DNA of 64,000 bases from an uncultured bacterium. GTDB taxonomy: Bacteria; Verrucomicrobiota; Kiritimatiellia; RFP12; CAIWXQ01. The translations under genes and the position numbers were made by a program. The stretch covers positions 64,217 to 128,216 of the forward strand of contig CAIWXQ010000001.1 in the NCBI GenBank assembly GCA_903916675.1, given 5' to 3'. Of the stretch, positions 34,169-62,581 are shown piece after piece; the stretch's first letter is position 1, and every line of letters begins with the position of its first letter. The notes below the pieces were generated by a model that saw nothing but the letters and a program-made list of their open reading frames with translations, did no database searches and was not told where the DNA came from.

Positions 34169-34593
34169 GTCGGCTCTCCTCGCCCGCGAAAGACCACAAC
34201 CAAACAAAGCGGGCACCAGACTATAAGCAACGATTATGCCATGTGAATTAGAAAACCAATCTGATGTATTGTAACACTCTGTATTATAACATATTGCACA
34301 TTTTTAGTCCTTTTGGGAAAGAAGACGTTATCCATGCAACAAAGAGTCAATCTGTCTCTATCTAGGTGGTCGATAAACGACTCTGTCCCACATAGGGACC
34401 GGATCGACCAATCCATCCTGCTGCGAATAGCGGATATCTTCCCAAAGCTAGACGAAAGCCGGTCAAAAAAAAGGTTGCAGCAATCAGTGAAATCTTGGTA
34501 TTTTGATAAACGAATAGAGGGGGTATGTCCTTGCGTCACGGTTTCGTCTTGCGTCACGGTTTCGTCTTGCGTCACGATTTCGTAAAGAAAGTG
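34169..34593. other. Low-GC divergent gap
   Basis: This 425-bp gap between dnaK and the first secreted protein is visibly AT-richer than the surrounding genome. It holds the likely dnaK promoter on one side and an 18-bp triplicate on the other. A plus-strand 90-codon frame (34313-34585) would encode a basic peptide ending in the repeats CVTVSS. It has no Shine-Dalgarno and I do not support it as a gene. Confidence 0.5.
34531..34584 (+). repeat. Three tandem copies of an 18-bp unit
   Basis: TTGCGTCACGGTTTCGTC occurs at 34531-34548 and 34549-34566. A third copy with two changes follows at 34567-34584. The array ends 9 bp before the start codon of the following secreted-protein gene, so it lies in that gene's untranslated leader or promoter. 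Direct iterons at such a place often are protein-binding sites or regions of slippage variation. Confidence 0.85.
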
Positions 34594-36159
34594 ATGGAAA
34601 ACACCGCCATGTCTACCACCACCCGGCCGCAGCATTTTTCTGTTGTCCAGGCGCATTGCGCGTGGCTGATGGTGTTGGCCATCCTTTTGGTCACACCTGC
34701 CCTTGCCCAGCGGACGGACAACAACTATAGCCGTCTGCCGAACTACTCGGAGTCGTTTGAGACTCTGACGGGATGGGGATCCTCCACTCCATTGGCGGTC
34801 AGCACTACGAACGGCTGGTATTCGACTCCGGATGATTTTTCCGTTATTACCAACCTCAGCTATTCATTCACGAACTGCACCTATCCGCTCTCAAGCGCCA
34901 CTTCCAATAATGTGTTGCGGGTCAAACTCAACAACTTGGCGATCTTGACCAACAATTTTGATGCTACGCCCGGCAGCCCGGCTACCGGATACAACATGCA
35001 GAACGTGCCTCTGTACATCGACATGATGGTCCAATTCATGACGAATTCGCAGGGCGCTTTCGTGACTTGCACAACCAATGACACAGGGGTCAAGGGTGCG
35101 GTGTATGTCGACAGTGCCTCCTCGAATCTGCTGGTTGTGTACCACGGCACCATGGATGCCGGCGGGAATTATCTCGCGGGGCAGAACACCAACGAGATCC
35201 TTTCCGCTCTGGTCACCCCGACAAATTGGTATCGTCTCACGATTGCCTATAGCGCAACCAGTCAAACGCAGATGTTCAAGGTTCTGACCAACGGCGTGGC
35301 TGTGCAGAGTTCACACGCCTACGCTGACGGCTGGCAGACGAGCTGGCCGCCCACTACCTCGCCAGCAGGCATTTGGTTCCGCTCTGCCGCAGGGCCCGCT
35401 CTCTATGCCACGAACCTCAACGCCGTGGCCTTTCAGGGGAGCGGCTATGTTGATGATCTGGTTGTCGCAAACACACCCCCCACCTATCAATCAGGCGGCT
35501 CGACCTTCCTGCTGATCGTGGCGAACAACGGCAACGGCAAAACAGACTTCACCAAGTCGAACAACACAGACCCGCTTACGCAGATCACCGTCGCCTCCGC
35601 CAGCAGCACCACCATTGTTTACACCGCGAACGGTTGGTATCAAATCTCCGCGCTGACCTCCAATGGCGTGACCGTGGCTGCTGCCGCGGGTGCCACGATC
35701 TATACCCAGACACTGACCGGCATCAGTCTGGATATCAGCAATAACGTCACGTTCATCACGAACTACACTGGCGCGGTGGTGGATTCGGTGCCCAGCAGCT
35801 GGGCGCTGACCATGGGCCTGACAGTGGCTTATGCCACGGCACATCCGACCCTTGTGCAAGAGGGGTACATGCTGAACCTGAATCCGGCGACGCTGTCGCC
35901 GACGCTGGGCATCGCCAGCCTCGACATGACCGGCTCAACGCTGAACGTCACGGTGCTGCTGCAGAACAACGGCGCGCCGGCCGACGTGAAGATCAACGGC
36001 ACGCTGCGCGTCTACGCGTCGGATGCGCCGAACGGCACCTATACTGAGGTCGGTGCGGCTGCGTTGCTGAACGCGCAATTTGATGTCAACGGCAAGTGTG
36101 TGCTGGCGTTCACCGTGCCGGCTGCCAACTTCTACCGGGCGCAGGTCACGTATCCGTAA
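34594..36159 (+). CDS. Secreted Asn/Thr-rich surface protein, concanavalin-like N-terminal domain
   Basis: This 521-residue protein has an N-terminal signal peptide (hydrophobic WLMVLAILLVTPALAQ, cleavage after ALA). Residues of about 45-300 (YSESFETLTGWG, LYIDMMVQFMTN, WYRLTIAYS, AVAFQGSGYVDDLVVAN) look like a LamG/concanavalin A-like jelly roll. The C-terminal part is Thr/Asn-rich with beta-sandwich character and ends in a segment (LRVYASDAPNGTYTEVGAA, ANFYRAQVTY) shared in style with the next protein. An in-frame ATG at 34609 is an alternative start. No catalytic residues seen. Likely a surface or extracellular-matrix protein. Confidence 0.65.
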   Translation: MENTAMSTTTRPQHFSVVQAHCAWLMVLAILLVTPALAQRTDNNYSRLPNYSESFETLTGWGSSTPLAVSTTNGWYSTPDDFSVITNLSYSFTNCTYPLSSATSNNVLRVKLNNLAILTNNFDATPGSPATGYNMQNVPLYIDMMVQFMTNSQGAFVTCTTNDTGVKGAVYVDSASSNLLVVYHGTMDAGGNYLAGQNTNEILSALVTPTNWYRLTIAYSATSQTQMFKVLTNGVAVQSSHAYADGWQTSWPPTTSPAGIWFRSAAGPALYATNLNAVAFQGSGYVDDLVVANTPPTYQSGGSTFLLIVANNGNGKTDFTKSNNTDPLTQITVASASSTTIVYTANGWYQISALTSNGVTVAAAAGATIYTQTLTGISLDISNNVTFITNYTGAVVDSVPSSWALTMGLTVAYATAHPTLVQEGYMLNLNPATLSPTLGIASLDMTGSTLNVTVLLQNNGAPADVKINGTLRVYASDAPNGTYTEVGAAALLNAQFDVNGKCVLAFTVPAANFYRAQVTYP

Positions 36160-36213
36160 CGCGAAGCAAGAGGACTGGTTTGGACCGCTGGGACGGCGGA
36201 AAGGATTAGGGCA

Positions 36214-36969
36214 ATGAAAAAACTGTTCTCCATGGTTCTCGGCCTCGCAATTGCGGCCGGTCTGGCGTTCGGTGATGACGGTCTTGCGCATCTCACGATG
36301 ACGATTTCCACGCCGGGCCCGGACTATTACAAGGACGGCACCAAGGTGCAGGATGGCGAGACCTACCTGCTGGTTTATCTCAAGACCAACGCGCTGTTCC
36401 GCGGTGTGCTGATGAACCGCACACTGGTGGACCCTGCGAACAACGTCATCGCGGCTGTCGGCCAGGCGAAGAACGGCGCCTGCGCTTTCCAGCCAATTCA
36501 GTTTTCGACCAATCTCTATCCGTCCACGGGTAAGTGGGTGATCGATCTGCTCGATACCCGCACGGCAGACGGCACGGTTGGCGGACTCGTGGTGGGCAAT
36601 GGCGCGAGCCAGCCTGCGTCCAGTCCCTCGGCCACAGCGCCGTCAATCACAGATTATGCGGCGACCATGACGGGTGCCGGCGCCACACTCGCCTCCACCG
36701 TGATCGCGCCGCCGCTGCCGGGCACGCCGGCGCCAATCATCACGTCCATTACCCAGAAGGACGGCGCCACCACCGTGAGCTTCAACAACCTGGCCAACGG
36801 CAACAATTACTACCTGCAGGAGGTCACCACTGTCGGCAACAGCTGGACGGCCACGGCAATTGTGAACCCCATTCCATGCTTTGATTCAGCCGCCGCGATC
36901 TCGGTTGAGGTCCCGGCTGTTCCGGGGCAGACCACCCGCTTCTTCCGGATCGTGACGCCGCTCCCGTAG
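36214..36969 (+). CDS. Hypothetical secreted protein
   Basis: This 251-residue protein has a classical signal peptide (MKKLFSMVLGLAIAAGLAFG). The mature protein has two parts separated by a low-complexity Ala/Pro/Ser stretch (about residues 130-150). The last part (TTVSFNNLANGNNYYLQEVTT, then TTRFFRIVTPLP) has the flavour of the immunoglobulin-like C-terminal domains common in verrucomicrobial secreted proteins. I recognise no named family. It lies 54 bp after the previous gene and 41 bp before the next, in the same orientation. Confidence 0.6.
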   Translation: MKKLFSMVLGLAIAAGLAFGDDGLAHLTMTISTPGPDYYKDGTKVQDGETYLLVYLKTNALFRGVLMNRTLVDPANNVIAAVGQAKNGACAFQPIQFSTNLYPSTGKWVIDLLDTRTADGTVGGLVVGNGASQPASSPSATAPSITDYAATMTGAGATLASTVIAPPLPGTPAPIITSITQKDGATTVSFNNLANGNNYYLQEVTTVGNSWTATAIVNPIPCFDSAAAISVEVPAVPGQTTRFFRIVTPLP

Positions 36970-37010
36970 GGACGATCGATCGCAACGCAATTCTCGCAAG
37001 GGGCTAAACC

Positions 37011-37838
37011 ATGAAGAAAACGTTGATTCTTCTCGCGTTCGTTGTGGCAGCGATGCTGGCGCAGGCGCAGATTGCGCCGCTGAACAGCTCCAACACGGTT
37101 GGTTTTGTCCTGGTCACCAACATCGCCAACCAGGCCAATTCCATCATCACCGTGCCGTTTGAAGCCTGCCTGAGCAATGGCGCCGCAGGCGTGGTGGCGG
37201 ACTTGGTTTCCACGAACGGGTTGGTTGCTGCCGGTGATGCCGCGCACGCGGACCAGTTGGTGGTGTTGACAACCAACGCCACGGGCCTGATCTACTACTA
37301 TTACTGGCTGCATGCCGGAACCGGGTGGACTGCAATCGACACGACCGTGCTGATGCCGGGCGGCACCAACGCCATCGTCACGCCGCCAGCTGCCGACACC
37401 TTCCAGATTTCGCGCGGGCTGGGCTTCTGGCTGAAGCGTTATGCGTCCGCTTCTGATTCCACCGTGATGCTCAAGGGGCAGGTCTCGGATATTGCGCAGT
37501 CTACGGTGATCATGCCGGGCCTGAATCTGGTCGGCTTTGCCTCGCCCACGAATGTGACCTTGAATGACTCCGGAGTTTCCTGGGTTGGCGCCTACAGCAC
37601 CAACGGGCTGACCACGACGTCCGACAAGATCATGATTGTCGGAACCAATGGATTGCTTGCCCCCTATTTCTACTTCACGTGCCCGACCGGCGTCACGTGG
37701 TCCGCGTATGCAGCGTTGGACGGCAAATGGATCAATCAGGGTTATGTGGTCGCCACAAACGTCAGCATCTCCGCCGGGCATGGGTTCTGGTATGTGCGTC
37801 GTGGGAGCAGCAGCTTCACTTTCCAGCCGGGTCTGTAA
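37011..37838 (+). CDS. Hypothetical secreted beta-rich protein
   Basis: This 275-residue protein starts with a clear signal peptide (MKKTLILLAFVVAAMLAQAQ). The body repeats a pattern of Thr/Asn-rich strands and has two related halves, each with a GFWLKRY/GFWYVRR motif near its end (about residues 143 and 263; ISRGLGFWLKR and ISAGHGFWYVRR). That internal repeat suggests a duplicated domain. It is reminiscent of the TIGR02597-type proteins of Verrucomicrobia, although I cannot confirm that here. It precedes the PEP-CTERM gene by 19 bp. Confidence 0.6.
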   Translation: MKKTLILLAFVVAAMLAQAQIAPLNSSNTVGFVLVTNIANQANSIITVPFEACLSNGAAGVVADLVSTNGLVAAGDAAHADQLVVLTTNATGLIYYYYWLHAGTGWTAIDTTVLMPGGTNAIVTPPAADTFQISRGLGFWLKRYASASDSTVMLKGQVSDIAQSTVIMPGLNLVGFASPTNVTLNDSGVSWVGAYSTNGLTTTSDKIMIVGTNGLLAPYFYFTCPTGVTWSAYAALDGKWINQGYVVATNVSISAGHGFWYVRRGSSSFTFQPGL

Positions 37839-37857
37839 GAGGACGAAAGGTCATGTC

Positions 37858-38385
37858 ATGAAAAAGGCGCTGGTATCGCTTTTTGCCGCCATCGGGGTCG
37901 TCTCTGCGTCCCAGGCGGTCATCGTCAGCTGGGCTGTCAGTTCGGTGATGTCCGGGACCACCGCAGCCGAGCTGGTGTATGTTTCGTCGGGCGTGCCGAT
38001 AGATGCCTCCGGCTCGGCGGGGTGGACGACTCTGGCCAACGCAACGGTGGTCGGCTCCCAGGTGTCTGGCCTTGCGATCACGCCGGCAGGCATTGGCGAG
38101 CAGGATACGGTGGACAGCGTGACCCGCAGCGGGGGCGCTTATTTTGTGGTTCTGTTCACCTACAACAGCGTACTGAATAACAACCGCACGTTGTTCGCGT
38201 ATTCCACGGGTGGTCTTGCCTACAACGATACGACCTACATCACGCCGAACGAGATGGCCCCGATCACGGGCGTGTGGGATCCCTCCAGCTTCACGCCGAT
38301 CCCGGAGCCCGGTTCCCTGTCGCTGCTGGGCGTCGGCGCTGTGGTTCTGGCTATTCGGCGCCGCCAAAAGAAACCGAAGTCGTAA
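37858..38385 (+). CDS. PEP-CTERM sorting-domain protein
   Basis: This 175-residue protein has a signal peptide (MKKALVSLFAAIGVVSASQA), a Thr/Ser-rich middle, and a C-terminal PEP-CTERM signal. The signal is IPEPGSLSLLGVGAVVLAIRRRQ: the PEP tripeptide, a hydrophobic helix, then an Arg cluster. Such tails are recognised by exosortase (EpsH) and tie the protein to extracellular polysaccharide or surface assembly. No exosortase gene is in this window. It is the fourth of four short-spaced secreted genes and is followed by a strong terminator. Confidence 0.85.
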   Translation: MKKALVSLFAAIGVVSASQAVIVSWAVSSVMSGTTAAELVYVSSGVPIDASGSAGWTTLANATVVGSQVSGLAITPAGIGEQDTVDSVTRSGGAYFVVLFTYNSVLNNNRTLFAYSTGGLAYNDTTYITPNEMAPITGVWDPSSFTPIPEPGSLSLLGVGAVVLAIRRRQKKPKS

Positions 38386-38413
38386 TAGCTGCAAACCTCA
38401 TTGCAATGAAACG

Positions 38414-38439
38414 GCGGCGCCTTGGGGTGCCGCTTTTTT
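38414..38439 (+). terminator. Intrinsic terminator after the PEP-CTERM gene
   Basis: GCGGCGCC (38414-38421) pairs with GGTGCCGC (38426-38433), with one wobble and a TTGG loop, and is followed by six Ts. The next gene's ribosome-binding site begins 4 nt later. Confidence 0.9.
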
Positions 38440-38457
38440 ATTGGAAGGAGATGTCGC

Positions 38458-41400
38458 GTGCTCCACTTGCTTCCGTTCCGTCCTATTACGCTGGGTCGCC
38501 TTCGTCGAGCCCGCCAGACATCGTTCGGGGTCTTTGCCGTTGCGCTGGTCTTCTACCTGTTGACACTGGACGCCTCGGTTTTTCCCGGCGAATCCGCCCG
38601 ATGGACCGTCTGGGTCACCGGCATCAATACGCGCGAACTGGTTTCCCATCCGCTTCTGTCCGCACTGGGTCGGGTTGTCGCCTCGCTGCCGGTCTTCTCG
38701 CTGGCCTTCCGTCTCAATGCACTGGCCGCACTGGCAGGCGCCATGACCCTTGGCTGGATCTACCGGCTGGCTTGGTTCTTCGTCTTCGACACCATGCGCG
38801 AACAGTCTGCCATCACCAAGGCTTCACGCCTGGCACGCTTCGCCGGCTTTCTGGCGGTTCTCACGGTTGGCCTCAGCCGGCCGTTCTGGCACGCCGCCAC
38901 CAACTTCCGGCCGGAGATCTTCGATGTGGCCCTGCTGATGGGATGCGCGCACCTGCTGATCGTCTATGCCCGCACGGAACGCGTGGTCTGGCTGCTGCTG
39001 TTTGGCGTGCTGTACGGCATGGGGATTGCGGAATCGCCGCTGTTCATGGCGATGATCCCGCTGATGGCGGCGGTTGCGGTGCTCGTGGAATGGCGGCTGA
39101 CCTGGTGCCAGATGAAGCGTTTGATCGCCTCTGCGGAACTGGCGCTGCTGGCGTTCGCCGGGACGTATTACCTGAGCGCCTGGGCTTTTGCCAAGATGTA
39201 CGACCGGGCCACAAACGCGCAGATGATCTTCGGCATGTTCCCCCAGATGCTGCGTGTGCAGTTCAGCGCCATCTCGCAGATGCTGCCCGCCCAATTGTGG
39301 CTGCCGGTTGTGCTGATGGGGCTGGTGGCCACGGCGCTGTCGTTTCTGGCGGCAAGTTATGCGTTGGACAACCGTCGTTCGTGGAGCCTGCTCCTGCTGA
39401 ACGTCGGCCTATCCGTCTCCGCTGTGCTGCTGCTGGGCAATGCGCCGTTTGCACCGTGGAGCATCCAGGTGGCGCGTGACGTGCTGCCGGTCGCCACCTA
39501 CGTGCTGGCGGGTCTGGGCATCAGCCTGCTGGCCACGTCATGGCGCGCGCTGGCGCTTATGGGCGACCCGGTGGAGGAGAACCAGGCGCTTCACGAAAAG
39601 GGTGCCAGAGCGCCGAGGCATTATGCCGCCACGCGCATGGCAGGCTTTCTGCTGGCGCCGGTGCTGGCGCTCGCCATCGGCGTCTGTGGGGTCGTGAACG
39701 CCATTGAGCACCTCAAGGATAATGGCCGGTTCGCCGACCGCATGGCGGATGCGGTGCTGGACGGCCTGCACGGCCGCACCTGGGTGGTCGGCAACGGCAT
39801 CATCGACAACAACCTGCTGATCCGGGCGCACGAACGCGGCCTGACCATCCACCTGCTGGCGCCCCTGCAGGCCAATGAACGGCACTACGTGGCCTCCATC
39901 CTGCGCGCCGTGCGCGCCGACCCCACGCTCTCTGCCAATGCCAGGTTGCGTGCGGAAAGTCTGATGGCCTACAACTTCCTCGTGTTCCTCGATGACATGT
40001 TTGCGACGGATTCCCGTGTGGGCGCAAAGGCCATCGCGATGGGACTCCCCGATATGTGGTATGGGTCGCGCTGGATCCCTGTTCCCGAGGTCCTGTTCTG
40101 CGGCGGCGTCCGCGATCTTTCGGAACTGCAGGACCGCAACCTGCTGGCCGCGTTTCAGACATTCTGGAAACAGTGGTCGTCGTTCCTGAAGGACGGCCCA
40201 GGCTCCCCGCAGCAGGTTTCGTATCGCTGCCGGCAGACCATGCTGCGCCACCTGGCTTTCATGGCCAACAATCTCGGTGTGATCCTGGATGATCTCGGCA
40301 GGCACGAGGAGGCCTATCTTGCCTATCAGAAGGCGCACAGCATCAACCCCGAAAACATCAGCGCGCTGCTGAACCTCTTCGAGATGGTCTCCCGCGGCAT
40401 GCACCCGGAGGCAAAAAACCAGATCAACTCCGAGCTGCGCAGCCGGGTCGATGACCCCACGCGGCGTTATTCCCTCTGGTCTTTGAGCCGCTATTACGGA
40501 TATGTCCGGAACAGCGAGATGTTCGTGCAGATGGGATGGTCGTGGGCTCTGTCGAGCAATCCCGGCTCCGTGCTGGCCGGCCTGCGCAGCGTCTATGCCA
40601 TGCAACCGGACGAGTCGCACCGCATGGGCGTGATGGCCATGCTGGCGGCGCTGCACGAGATGCGCGGAGATCTCGCCCAGAGTGCCGACGAATACCAGAA
40701 GGTCTTGCAGGCCGATCCCCGGAACGCGACGGCGATCTCCGGACTGGTCCGCCTGACGCTCCGGCGGAATGTCGTGGACGAAGCCCGCCGGATCCTGGAG
40801 ACCGGCGAAGGCGCAGGCGCCTCCAAGCGCCTGCTCCGGCAGGACTGGGCCGCGCTCTATCTTGTGTCGGGCGACCTGCCGCGGGCGCGTATCGTCCTGC
40901 AGGACCTGGCGGATGACCCCGCCGTCACCCCCATGTGCCTGGCCATGCTGGCCATGGTCATGATCGAACAGAACGAGGGCAGCATCGTGGAGTCGACGGT
41001 CCTGCCCAAGCTGCTCCAGAAGACCAACGATTCCAAGGACGACCGCTATTTTCCGCTCGTGATCCAGGGGCGCATCTGGCAGAGCAAAGGCAAGTCCGGA
41101 TTCAAGAACGCGCTCATCTATTTTCAGCGCGCCGCCGCCATCCGGCCGGACGTGCAGGCGCTGCAGGAGGTGATCCTGATGCTTGATGCTGCCATGGAGA
41201 ATCAGACGGCCGCCGAGGCCCACGCGCTGCTGCTTCTCCGGCAGCAGCCGGGACATGCGCTGGCCAACTTCATCGTCGGCTCCATCCGCCTGGAACAGGC
41301 GCGGTACGAGGATGCCGAGCCGTATCTGCGCTGCAGCGCCGGTGCGCCGGCGCCCACGGTAGATGCGTTGAACAACTTTGCGCAGGTCCTGTGCCACAAC

Positions 41401-41733
41401 CGCAAGCTCGACGAGGCCACGCTCGTGGCGCGGCGGGCCACGGAAATCGCCCCCGGGCGCTACGAGAGCTGGTCCACGCTGGCATCTGTGCTGATCCTGG
41501 CCGGAAACTTCGAAGCCGCCGAGGAGGCGCTGGCTAAGGCGCACCAGATGAACAATGCCGACTCCCGGCTTTTCCTGGTGGATGCCCAGTTGGCCGTGCA
41601 GCGCGGCGACCTCGGCGCAGCCAGGAAAGCGCTGGGGGCTATCGACTCGAAGACGACACTCTCCATTTCCGAACGCCGCGATCTGGCGGATCTCAAGGCG
41701 GCCCTTGATCGCTTGGGCCAGCGGCGCTTGTAG
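38458..41733 (+). CDS. DUF2723-like multispan membrane protein with long TPR region
   Basis: A GTG at 38458 with GGAAGGAG 7 nt upstream gives 1091 residues. The N-terminal part (about 15-430) has roughly ten hydrophobic helices and begins like DUF2723/O-mannosyltransferase proteins (VFYLLTLDASVFPGESARW, HPLLSALGRV, LAFRLNALAALAGAMTLGWI). The C-terminal 550 residues are TPR-like repeats (NNLGVILDDLGRHEEAYLAYQKAHSINP, DEYQKVLQADPRNATAISGL, NNFAQVLCHNRKLDEATLVARR). Related proteins are predicted lipid-linked sugar transferases acting at the outer face of the membrane. It directly follows a PEP-CTERM gene, so a role in glycosylating or assembling surface proteins is attractive but unproven. Confidence 0.75.
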   Translation: MLHLLPFRPITLGRLRRARQTSFGVFAVALVFYLLTLDASVFPGESARWTVWVTGINTRELVSHPLLSALGRVVASLPVFSLAFRLNALAALAGAMTLGWIYRLAWFFVFDTMREQSAITKASRLARFAGFLAVLTVGLSRPFWHAATNFRPEIFDVALLMGCAHLLIVYARTERVVWLLLFGVLYGMGIAESPLFMAMIPLMAAVAVLVEWRLTWCQMKRLIASAELALLAFAGTYYLSAWAFAKMYDRATNAQMIFGMFPQMLRVQFSAISQMLPAQLWLPVVLMGLVATALSFLAASYALDNRRSWSLLLLNVGLSVSAVLLLGNAPFAPWSIQVARDVLPVATYVLAGLGISLLATSWRALALMGDPVEENQALHEKGARAPRHYAATRMAGFLLAPVLALAIGVCGVVNAIEHLKDNGRFADRMADAVLDGLHGRTWVVGNGIIDNNLLIRAHERGLTIHLLAPLQANERHYVASILRAVRADPTLSANARLRAESLMAYNFLVFLDDMFATDSRVGAKAIAMGLPDMWYGSRWIPVPEVLFCGGVRDLSELQDRNLLAAFQTFWKQWSSFLKDGPGSPQQVSYRCRQTMLRHLAFMANNLGVILDDLGRHEEAYLAYQKAHSINPENISALLNLFEMVSRGMHPEAKNQINSELRSRVDDPTRRYSLWSLSRYYGYVRNSEMFVQMGWSWALSSNPGSVLAGLRSVYAMQPDESHRMGVMAMLAALHEMRGDLAQSADEYQKVLQADPRNATAISGLVRLTLRRNVVDEARRILETGEGAGASKRLLRQDWAALYLVSGDLPRARIVLQDLADDPAVTPMCLAMLAMVMIEQNEGSIVESTVLPKLLQKTNDSKDDRYFPLVIQGRIWQSKGKSGFKNALIYFQRAAAIRPDVQALQEVILMLDAAMENQTAAEAHALLLLRQQPGHALANFIVGSIRLEQARYEDAEPYLRCSAGAPAPTVDALNNFAQVLCHNRKLDEATLVARRATEIAPGRYESWSTLASVLILAGNFEAAEEALAKAHQMNNADSRLFLVDAQLAVQRGDLGAARKALGAIDSKTTLSISERRDLADLKAALDRLGQRRL

Positions 41734-61460: not shown

Positions 61461-62024
61461 ATGAGCACGGAATTGACACCTGCCGAGCGCATCGAGACGA
61501 AGATTCTTCTGCTGCGCGGTCAGAAGGTGCTGCTGGATCGAGACTTGGCCGAATTATATGGCGTGCCGACCAAGGCATTGAAACGAGCGGTAAGAAGAAA
61601 TATTACCCGCTTCCCAGATGATTTCATGTTTATGCTCGATGGCGGAGAATTCGAGAATTGGAGGTGCCAATTTGGCACCTCCAATTCCGATCGCATGGGG
61701 TTGCGTTATGCTCCCATGGCCTTCACCGAACACGGGATCGCCATGCTTTCAAGCGTGTTGAACAGCGAGCGCGCCATCCAGGTGAATATCTCGATCATGC
61801 GGGCTTTTGCGCAACTGCGGGCGCTGCTGGCCACGCACGCCGATCTGGCGCGGAAACTGGAGGAATTGGAAAAGAACTATGATGCCCAGTTCCGCGTCGT
61901 GTTCGAGGCGTTGCGCCAGTTGATCGATCCGCCAGAACCGCCCCGCAAGCAGATTGGCTTTGGCGTGCGGGATCGGGGCGCGGTTTACCGGGTAAAACCA
62001 GGGAAAACTGGAATAGTGGCCTGA
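61461..62024 (+). CDS. ORF6N-domain protein (paralogue 1)
   Basis: This 187-residue DNA-binding-type ORF6N protein starts with the standard ELTPAERIETKILLLRGQKV and LDRDLAELYGV and continues with the conserved AFTEHGIAMLSSVLNSERAIQVNISIMRAF. The C-terminal half (about 120-165) is a predicted coiled coil (LARKLEELEKNYDAQF). ORF6N/KilA-N proteins are common in phages and mobile regions and are thought to act as antirepressors or regulators. The segment between the two conserved blocks (about residues 65-77) is encoded by a long palindrome. The upper part is nearly identical to paralogue 2. Confidence 0.9.
   Translation: MSTELTPAERIETKILLLRGQKVLLDRDLAELYGVPTKALKRAVRRNITRFPDDFMFMLDGGEFENWRCQFGTSNSDRMGLRYAPMAFTEHGIAMLSSVLNSERAIQVNISIMRAFAQLRALLATHADLARKLEELEKNYDAQFRVVFEALRQLIDPPEPPRKQIGFGVRDRGAVYRVKPGKTGIVA
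61655..61687. repeat. 33-bp near-perfect palindrome inside ORF6N paralogue 1
   Basis: Arms 61655-61670 and 61672-61687 are exact complements (core TGCCAA/TTGGCA), with a single T (61671) at the centre. It encodes ENWRCQFGTSNS. Its position is codon-exact with that in paralogue 2. Confidence 0.95.
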
Positions 62025-62041: not shown

Positions 62042-62581
62042 ATGAGCACAGAACTGACACCTGCCGAACGCATCGAGACGAAGATTCTCCTGCTGCGCGG
62101 GCAGAAGGTGATTTTGGACCGTGATTTGGCGGTACTGTATGGCGTGCCGACCGGGAATCTCAAGCGGGCGGTCCTGCGGAACGCGGAAAGATTTCCGGAA
62201 GACTTTATGTTTGTGCTTGATTCGCAAGAGGTTACAAACTTGATATGCCAAATTGGCATATCAAGTTCATCGTGGGGCGGAACACGTCACGCTCCCATGG
62301 CCTTCACCGAGCAGGGTGTGGCCATGTTATCGAGCGTGCTGAATAGTTCGCGCGCGATTCAGGTGAACGTCGCGATCATGCGGGCGTTTGTGCGGTTGCG
62401 GCAGATTCTGGCCTCGCATGCGGATTTGGCGCGCAAGCTGGACGAACTGGAAAAGAAATACGACGGCCAGTTCCGCGTCGTGTTCGAGGCGTTGCGCCAG
62501 CTCATGACGCCGCACGACGATCCGCCCCGATCGCGCATCGGGTTCGCATCGGATCACGCCACCTCATCGGCCGGCCAATAG
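62042..62581 (+). CDS. ORF6N-domain protein (paralogue 2)
   Basis: This 179-residue tandem paralogue, 17 bp downstream, has the same architecture: ELTPAERIETKILLLRGQKV, LDRDLAVLYGV, AFTEQGVAMLSSVLNSSRAIQVNVAIMRAF and the coiled coil LARKLDELEKKYDGQF. It carries the more common WGG form (SSSWGGTRHAPMAF), where paralogue 1 has SDRMGLRYAPMAF. Both genes keep intact frames, so both are presumably functional. Confidence 0.9.
   Translation: MSTELTPAERIETKILLLRGQKVILDRDLAVLYGVPTGNLKRAVLRNAERFPEDFMFVLDSQEVTNLICQIGISSSSWGGTRHAPMAFTEQGVAMLSSVLNSSRAIQVNVAIMRAFVRLRQILASHADLARKLDELEKKYDGQFRVVFEALRQLMTPHDDPPRSRIGFASDHATSSAGQ
62237..62267. repeat. 31-bp near-perfect palindrome inside ORF6N paralogue 2
   Basis: Arms 62237-62251 and 62253-62267 are exact complements around a single A (62252), with the same TGCCAA/TTGGCA core as paralogue 1. 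The outer arm bases differ from paralogue 1 in four pairs, each compensated. It encodes TNLICQIGISSS. Confidence 0.95.

Follow-up and report, generated by a model that had tools for sequence, protein, structure and literature searches.

Four secreted proteins travel through a bacterial group together with a membrane protein that resembles sugar-attaching enzymes; the five-gene cassette that encodes them, with its dedicated partner of glycosyltransferase C (GT-C) and tetratricopeptide repeat (TPR) type, therefore suggests a machine for finishing surface proteins. The cassette lies in the window, that is, the whole stretch of 64,000 nucleotides that was analysed (G000:C1:64217-128216 of a 2.48-Mb assembly, 87% complete), where the genes of p1, p2, p3, p4 and a large protein, called here the giant, follow one another in a single direction at 34594-41733 of the plus strand. 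The proteins and the sorting signal are as follows.

34594..36159, plus strand: p1, an exported Thr/Asn-rich protein of 521 residues (open reading frame with ATG at 34594), the first gene of the cassette, of no known family
36214..36969, plus strand: p2, an exported protein of 251 residues with a conserved N-terminal part and an FFRV-like C-terminus, of no known family
37011..37838, plus strand: p3, an exported protein of 275 residues with two tandem units of about 110 residues, each ending with G-x-GFW
37858..38385, plus strand: p4, a PEP-CTERM surface protein of 175 residues, matched by PF07589 and TIGR02595
38302..38382, plus strand: PEP-CTERM sorting tail of p4, with PEP motif, hydrophobic helix and RRR/KK end, from the sequence and the Pfam match
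38458..41733, plus strand: the giant, 1091 residues from a GTG start, a membrane protein of predicted GT-C fold and TPR superhelix (PF11028, TPR models, AlphaFold2)

The complete order p1-p2-p3-p4-giant was seen in five genomes, namely that of the window, L045 (G029), L046 (G040), L047 (G005) and L216 (DUPH01000056.1), and in all five the giant stands directly downstream of the PEP-CTERM gene; the genes flanking the cassette differ among the window, L045, L046 and L047. Contigs L215 and L218 end within the cassette, and L214 and L217 were treated as the same records as the G029 and G040 contigs. A shorter type of about 800 residues is homologous to the giant over most of its length (profile comparison probability 100, E 2e-40). 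In 28 related genomes, 23 of the 83 PEP-CTERM sites found with Pfam lie 2 kb or less from a listed gene of the giant family, against 0.47 expected from genome sizes; a Poisson figure for this proximity presupposes independent genomes and uniformly spread sites, an assumption that fails, so only the counts are used. By type, 11/53 of the listed 1100-residue giants and 12/21 of the 800-residue ones are linked, these 74 entries being a selection: a gene with several rows counts once, a number of short or weak rows of TPR type were dropped, and some fragments remain. Pfam finds three PEP-CTERM sites in the genome of the window, two adjoining a giant and one the exosortase. A PEP-CTERM gene within 1.5 kb was found for 10/40 giants of the 1100-residue type and for 0/100 control genes of at least 300 residues on the same loci; the ten comprise eight from a strict script, plus the window and L072, whose PEP-CTERM genes were missed by that script (signal-peptide or score filter) and are both found by Pfam. 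Twenty further loci were chosen by p2 or p3 matches, and a filter for an 800-residue membrane/TPR protein found one in 10 of them, directly downstream of a PEP-CTERM gene in 10/10; two more such proteins occur at L149 and L151, and 8/20 loci have none within the stretch examined. Since these ten came from loci picked by p2 or p3, the less biased count is a profile search with the 800-residue type, in which 17/22 rows have a PEP-CTERM gene no more than 1.5 kb away, two of the rows being one gene and one a fragment.

A quick tree of 50 giants, with Shimodaira–Hasegawa-like approximate likelihood ratio test (SH-aLRT) support and no bootstrap, was labelled for linkage with the 10 linked 1100-residue giants, and linkage requires six changes on it, at least five of which are forced by starred branches. 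The L047 giant is sister to the unlinked giant of L050, not to that of the window; because it groups there while p1-p4 of L047 resemble those of the window (p2-p4 37-39% identical, p1 26%), the cassette has retained its type of partner, although in at least one case the giant comes from a different clade. Near the linked giants on the tree stand those of L069, L070, L071 and L073, for which no PEP-CTERM gene was found within 1.5 kb.

The linkage of p1-p4 and the giant is real. An accidental position of the giant 3' of a PEP-CTERM gene, with no relation between the two, is very improbable: such an accident would agree with the terminator-like hairpin in the gap after p4 and with the fact that most giant-family entries do not stand beside a PEP-CTERM gene, but the order kept in five genomes, the repeated linkage on the tree, the excess over expectation given above and a gap of only 9 nucleotides between p4 and the giant in L216 speak against it, and a chance neighbourhood is rejected on the linkage counts and the tree. 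A strict coupling is nevertheless countered by several observations: within 2 kb, a PEP-CTERM site is lacking for 51/74 listed giant-family entries and a giant for 60/83 PEP-CTERM sites, and L142, L143, L146 and L150 hold p2 or p3 and a PEP-CTERM gene with no giant nearby. The initial annotation had proposed a coupled surface-protein/giant system and would have given it up had relatives lacked the linkage; relatives carry it, and the comparative data support such a system. No paper on this cassette or its linkage was found in the open-access literature, as judged from titles and the beginnings of abstracts.

The giant had been described as a DUF2723-like/TPR protein of 1091 residues, and this description holds, since its reading frame matches PF11028 (TMEM260-like, which we take to be the former DUF2723) at 30.5 bits with a cut-off of 24.2, along with many TPR models. 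The parts of the protein discussed below are located as follows.

38485..40113, plus strand: predicted GT-C membrane domain and periplasmic domain, about residues 10-552, from structural alignment
38584..38592, plus strand: P43-G44-E45, occupying the site of canonical [EQ]D[SAC]GE in the first periplasmic loop, from alignment
39031..39033, plus strand: E192, acidic in 20/20 PEP-CTERM-linked members tested and N in 22/22 canonical TMEM260-like rows
40222..41637, plus strand: TPR superhelix, about residues 589-1060, from Pfam TPR matches, the secondary structure of the model and 1w3b_A

The AlphaFold2 model has a predicted local distance difference test score (pLDDT) of 84.5 and a predicted TM-score (pTM) of 0.71. 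Residues 11-552 align with chain 6s7o_A of the human oligosaccharyltransferase complex OST-A, presumably its STT3 subunit, with VIA-align Z 18.7 over 410 residues at 5.6 Å, and residues 13-583 align with Pmt4 (9i5k_A) with Z 18.1 over 331 residues at 4.9 Å. The tool warns that helical models can score Z 13-14 without clear kinship; because Z reaches 18 across 410 residues, with the PF11028 match and a profile match of residues 19-209 to canonical TMEM260-like proteins (E 5.8e-15), a GT-C fold predicted for the membrane half is the safe reading. A search of the PDB for sequence relatives of the first 591 residues gave none at E 5 or better. PF11028 is matched at E 0.01 or better by 21/28 giants and 3/10 of the 800-residue forms. 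Residues 681-1089 align with the TPR superhelix of O-GlcNAc transferase (OGT; 1w3b_A) with Z 24.4 and a root-mean-square deviation of 11.4 over 387 residues; the two proteins share this superhelix, and they differ in that the giant joins it to a GT-C domain. The catalytic domain of OGT is a soluble GT-B fold.

The preferred reading, held with not quite an even chance, is that the giant would act in the periplasm as a dedicated enzyme adding sugars to the cassette proteins. It has been reported (PMC11292533) that TMEM260 and TMTC enzymes modify Ig-like domains of particular proteins and combine a GT-C catalytic half with a TPR half believed to bring in the Ig-like substrates, and Haft and colleagues, in a portion of PMC1569441 describing PrsT, suggested that TPR domains may be adaptors that guide covalent modification. 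By analogy, the cassette would fit the GT-C and TPR recruiting plan of TMEM260/TMTC, with a dedicated substrate set. The giant resembles the TMEM260 (GT117) protein O-mannosyltransferase family PF11028 in scoring above the Pfam cut-off and in joining a GT-C half to a C-terminal TPR region, and it resembles STT3 and Pmt4 in the predicted GT-C fold of about residues 11-583. Unlike STT3 and Pmt4, the giants lack WWDYG and a conserved first-loop acid and bear TPR in place of MIR or OST partners; WWDYG is the STT3 motif. The canonical TMEM260-like comparison comprised 22 rows from 21 genomes (one supplies two), each of which also carries a strong canonical copy of 90 bits or more, its best PF11028 match lying at 90-123 bits. 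Here the first loop holds [EQ]D[SAC]GE, and aligned position 45 is D in 22/22, including row L183, which is without the searched motif string. Neither this motif nor canonical HPPG (22 rows) is conserved in the giants, which have P43 in 40/40 and G44 in 39/40, whereas canonical position 44 is E in 20 rows and Q in 2; position 48 is E in 21/22 canonical rows and not so in the giants; and position 192, N in the canonical rows, is mostly acidic in the giants.

The first-loop acid is important to this question: part of PMC12705809 describes the acid after the first helix, in an invariant DE motif, as catalytic in protein O-mannosyltransferases, and part of PMC11292533 predicts it to be important in TMTC/TMEM260-type enzymes. 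Several results count against an enzyme. When the canonical first-loop acidic motif was used as a family test for TMEM260-like proteins, it was not found across the giants; position 45 is E in only 18/40 of them, being acidic in 2/10 linked giants (E, T, H, E, I, L, Y, Y, T and T) and 16/30 unlinked ones, a difference that is not claimed (Fisher p 0.08). Position 45 is A in the L216 giant, though E192, D427 and D450 are kept there; WWDYG occurs in 0/28 giants; and an excess of N-x-S/T sequons was not found in p1-p4, the observed count being reached by at least 71/500 shuffles for each protein of four cassettes (16 in all). The window's giant itself retains an acid at the site (E45), and from the order of the helices E45, D156 and E192 would lie at periplasmic helix ends or in the first loop.

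Because the loop acid is lost, the enzyme has a close rival, in itself a serious though lesser possibility: a former glycosyltransferase turned scaffold, whose GT-C bundle would anchor it in the inner membrane while the TPR part gathers p1-p4 and passes the PEP-CTERM protein to the exosortase or an exporter. The loss of the acid in most linked copies fits a scaffold, as do the conserved TPR part, where columns such as N604, N972 and A987 are invariant in 28/28 giants, the cassette that carries a giant of another clade, and the TPR protein PrsT, which tracks PEP-CTERM systems according to part of PMC1569441. A mere anchor would, on the other hand, have no need of E192, D427 and D450, which are invariant in 10/10 linked giants; positions 192 and 450 are also acidic in 10/10 of the 800-residue forms (450 being D throughout, and 427 D in 4/10), and the model retains the GT-C fold together with the periplasmic domain. 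Among the 30 unlinked giants, position 192 is acidic in 25 and position 450 in 26. The initial proposal of a glycosyltransferase is borne out in the predicted fold and not in the canonical first-loop acidic residues; the giant is a candidate glycosyltransferase.

The surface-protein genes had also been called an operon, followed by the giant. The co-transcription of the giant with p1-p4 in this genome is not certain, because a strong terminator-like hairpin stands in the gap after p4.

38413..38439, plus strand: terminator-like hairpin (9 pairs, 7 of them G-C) with a run of T between p4 and the giant, a probable attenuator

The hairpin spans 38413-38434 and its run of T extends to 38439; no other terminator-like site in the list for the region is as strong, and only 18 bases, containing a GGAAGGAG stretch, lie between the run of T and the GTG of the giant. 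Eleven chosen gaps were tested for such a structure, and the gap of the p4-giant type was positive in seven (the window, L045, L046, L047, the 800-residue cassettes L154 and L161, and L067) and negative in four (L152, L153, L155 and L074). A hairpin thus stands between p4 and the giant in 4/5 complete cassettes, the fifth being L216, where the 9 nucleotides from the stop of p4 to the ATG of the giant leave no space for one. Judged from the sequence, the simplest reading would be attenuation with low-level read-through, which would give many structural proteins and few copies of the giant.

The four proteins upstream had been annotated as exported and Asn/Thr-rich, with a PEP-CTERM protein last. 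Signal-peptide-like N-terminal stretches are present on p1-p4 (p1-p3 are also flagged by a crude script), and the tail of p4 exceeds both cut-offs, with 25.7 bits against 20.7 for PF07589 and 24.6 against 16 for TIGR02595. Thr makes up 9.1-13.4% of p1-p4; comparison proteins from the window reach 5.8-7.7% (four housekeeping proteins) and 5.0-6.8% (four further exported ones). Asn is elevated mainly in p1 (8.8%). No Pfam or NCBIfam family lies above its cut-off for p1, p2 or p3 of the window; Pfam matches were found in 0/4 p1 orthologues and NCBIfam matches in 0/4 scanned p2 proteins, and the scanned relatives of p1-p3 (set A2 with NCBIfam, sets A6 and A4 with Pfam) are likewise without a family above cut-off. 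Orthologues of p1 occur at L045, L046 and L047 (26-27% identity) and also at L215, L216 and L218; identity to orthologues is 35-44% for p2 (three orthologues), 39-54% for p3 and 39-50% for p4. Of 387 phylum genomes, 24 have matches to the p2 profile and 58 to that of p3, and relatives of p2 occur in records labelled Kiritimatiellae, Lentisphaerae, Verrucomicrobia bacterium or plain bacterium, which makes a host of Kiritimatiellota type the most likely one. The two halves of p3 match each other with E 3e-7; at E 0.001 or better its predicted model (pLDDT 74) matches nothing in the PDB, which does not show its fold to be new, and relatives sought in viral contigs gave none confirmed. A p3-like part is embedded in proteins of 1,095-2,776 residues at L144, L148, L149 and L160. 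Secreted proteins of 2,500-2,800 residues adjoin PEP-CTERM genes in other cassettes (L149 5836-13365, L144 3935-12010 and L160 8555-16885), with laminin-G, MBG or Listeria-Bacteroides repeat domains. Immediately 5' of p1, a low-GC intergenic stretch of the window (34531-34584) holds an 18-bp unit (TTGCGTCACGGTTTCGTC-like) three times in tandem.

An exosortase had been expected elsewhere, and the search of the genome found it on contig C30 (G000:C30:3713-4468; PF09721 E 2.5e-53; TIGR02602 127.5 bits, cut-off 105.55), with two small PEP-CTERM proteins immediately upstream. A second tail above the TIGR02595 cut-off is also at this locus, together with a protein that bears a weak resemblance to the O-ligase of the XrtA system (35.8 bits against a cut-off of 188.1) and XrtA-system-type glycosyltransferases below their equivalog cut-offs. 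An exosortase match is present in 54/59 genomes, the window's included. At L043 (3058-3641 and 7504-7710), tiny proteins of 68-100 residues beside the exosortase consist of little beyond a signal peptide and a PEP-CTERM-like tail, and two of three are above the TIGR02595 cut-off. Genomes of family f3 (G008, G018, G022, G026 and G038) have 30 to 33 PEP-CTERM sites per 1.7-2.4 Mb, compared with 0-7 in the searched genomes of the order's other families.

The XrtA-type exosortase/PEP-CTERM system (EpsH, PrsK/PrsR/PrsT) is alike in the PEP-CTERM tail, the exosortase above the TIGR02602 cut-off and the glycosyltransferases near it, and, as part of PMC1569441 describes, in a TPR protein associated with PEP-CTERM genes. 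It differs in that its TPR partner is the lipoprotein PrsT, whereas here the partner is a membrane protein of GT-C type whose gene goes with individual PEP-CTERM cassettes and not with the exosortase locus. The giant is not PrsT, since TIGR02917 gives 88.4 bits against a cut-off of 312.2; the best stretch, residues 738-970 of the longer open reading frame, lies within the TPR part. It is unlikely that the giant instead makes or ligates an envelope polysaccharide or lipid-linked glycan with which the PEP-CTERM protein associates, without touching the cassette proteins directly. The GT-C fold and the glycosyltransferases at the exosortase locus are compatible with this, and exosortase systems track exopolysaccharide loci according to a portion of PMC1569441, but the giant stands directly 3' of the secreted genes in complete cassettes, no sugar-synthesis gene was recognised among the cassette genes (flanking genes were searched in part), and an OGT-like TPR superhelix suits protein substrates.

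In the preferred reading, that of a dedicated glycosylating enzyme, the five genes would form a conserved cassette that builds and finishes one surface structure. p1-p3 would be secreted Thr-rich structural proteins, and p4 a small partner whose PEP-CTERM tail would anchor it in the inner membrane until the exosortase releases or transfers it. The TPR superhelix of the periplasm-facing giant would pick out the cassette proteins, and its membrane domain would add sugar to them from a lipid-linked donor, before or along with exosortase action; the hairpin 3' of p4 would, through read-through, keep the amount of the giant small compared with that of the structural proteins, as for an enzyme.

As for its setting, the cassette is flanked by genes that we take, from their translations, to be groEL-groES-dnaK (minus strand) on one side and purA-uppS-cdsA-dxr-rseP-ispG (plus strand) on the other. 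Farther along the window, two adjacent open reading frames (61461-62024 and 62042-62581) have first 30 residues that are identical but for one place (MSTELTPAERIETKILLLRGQKV-) and may represent a recent tandem duplication or paired genes.

To our knowledge, the fate and attachment of PEP-CTERM proteins after the exosortase are an open question in the field. The cassette offers a defined test case, with one PEP-CTERM protein, three partners as candidate substrates and one candidate GT-C/TPR enzyme, and the loss of the first-loop acid alongside invariant acids elsewhere makes enzyme and scaffold directly decidable by point mutants. A bolder and improbable idea is that the linked GT-C/TPR proteins are a new class of catalyst with a relocated active site, in which E192 with D427/D450 would replace the first-loop acid, and that they join exosortase-sorted cassette proteins to a glycan. 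If this were true, the exosortase would find in such giants its missing partner for decoration or ligation, and they would have been recruited repeatedly, one per surface structure, in Kiritimatiellota-like bacteria.

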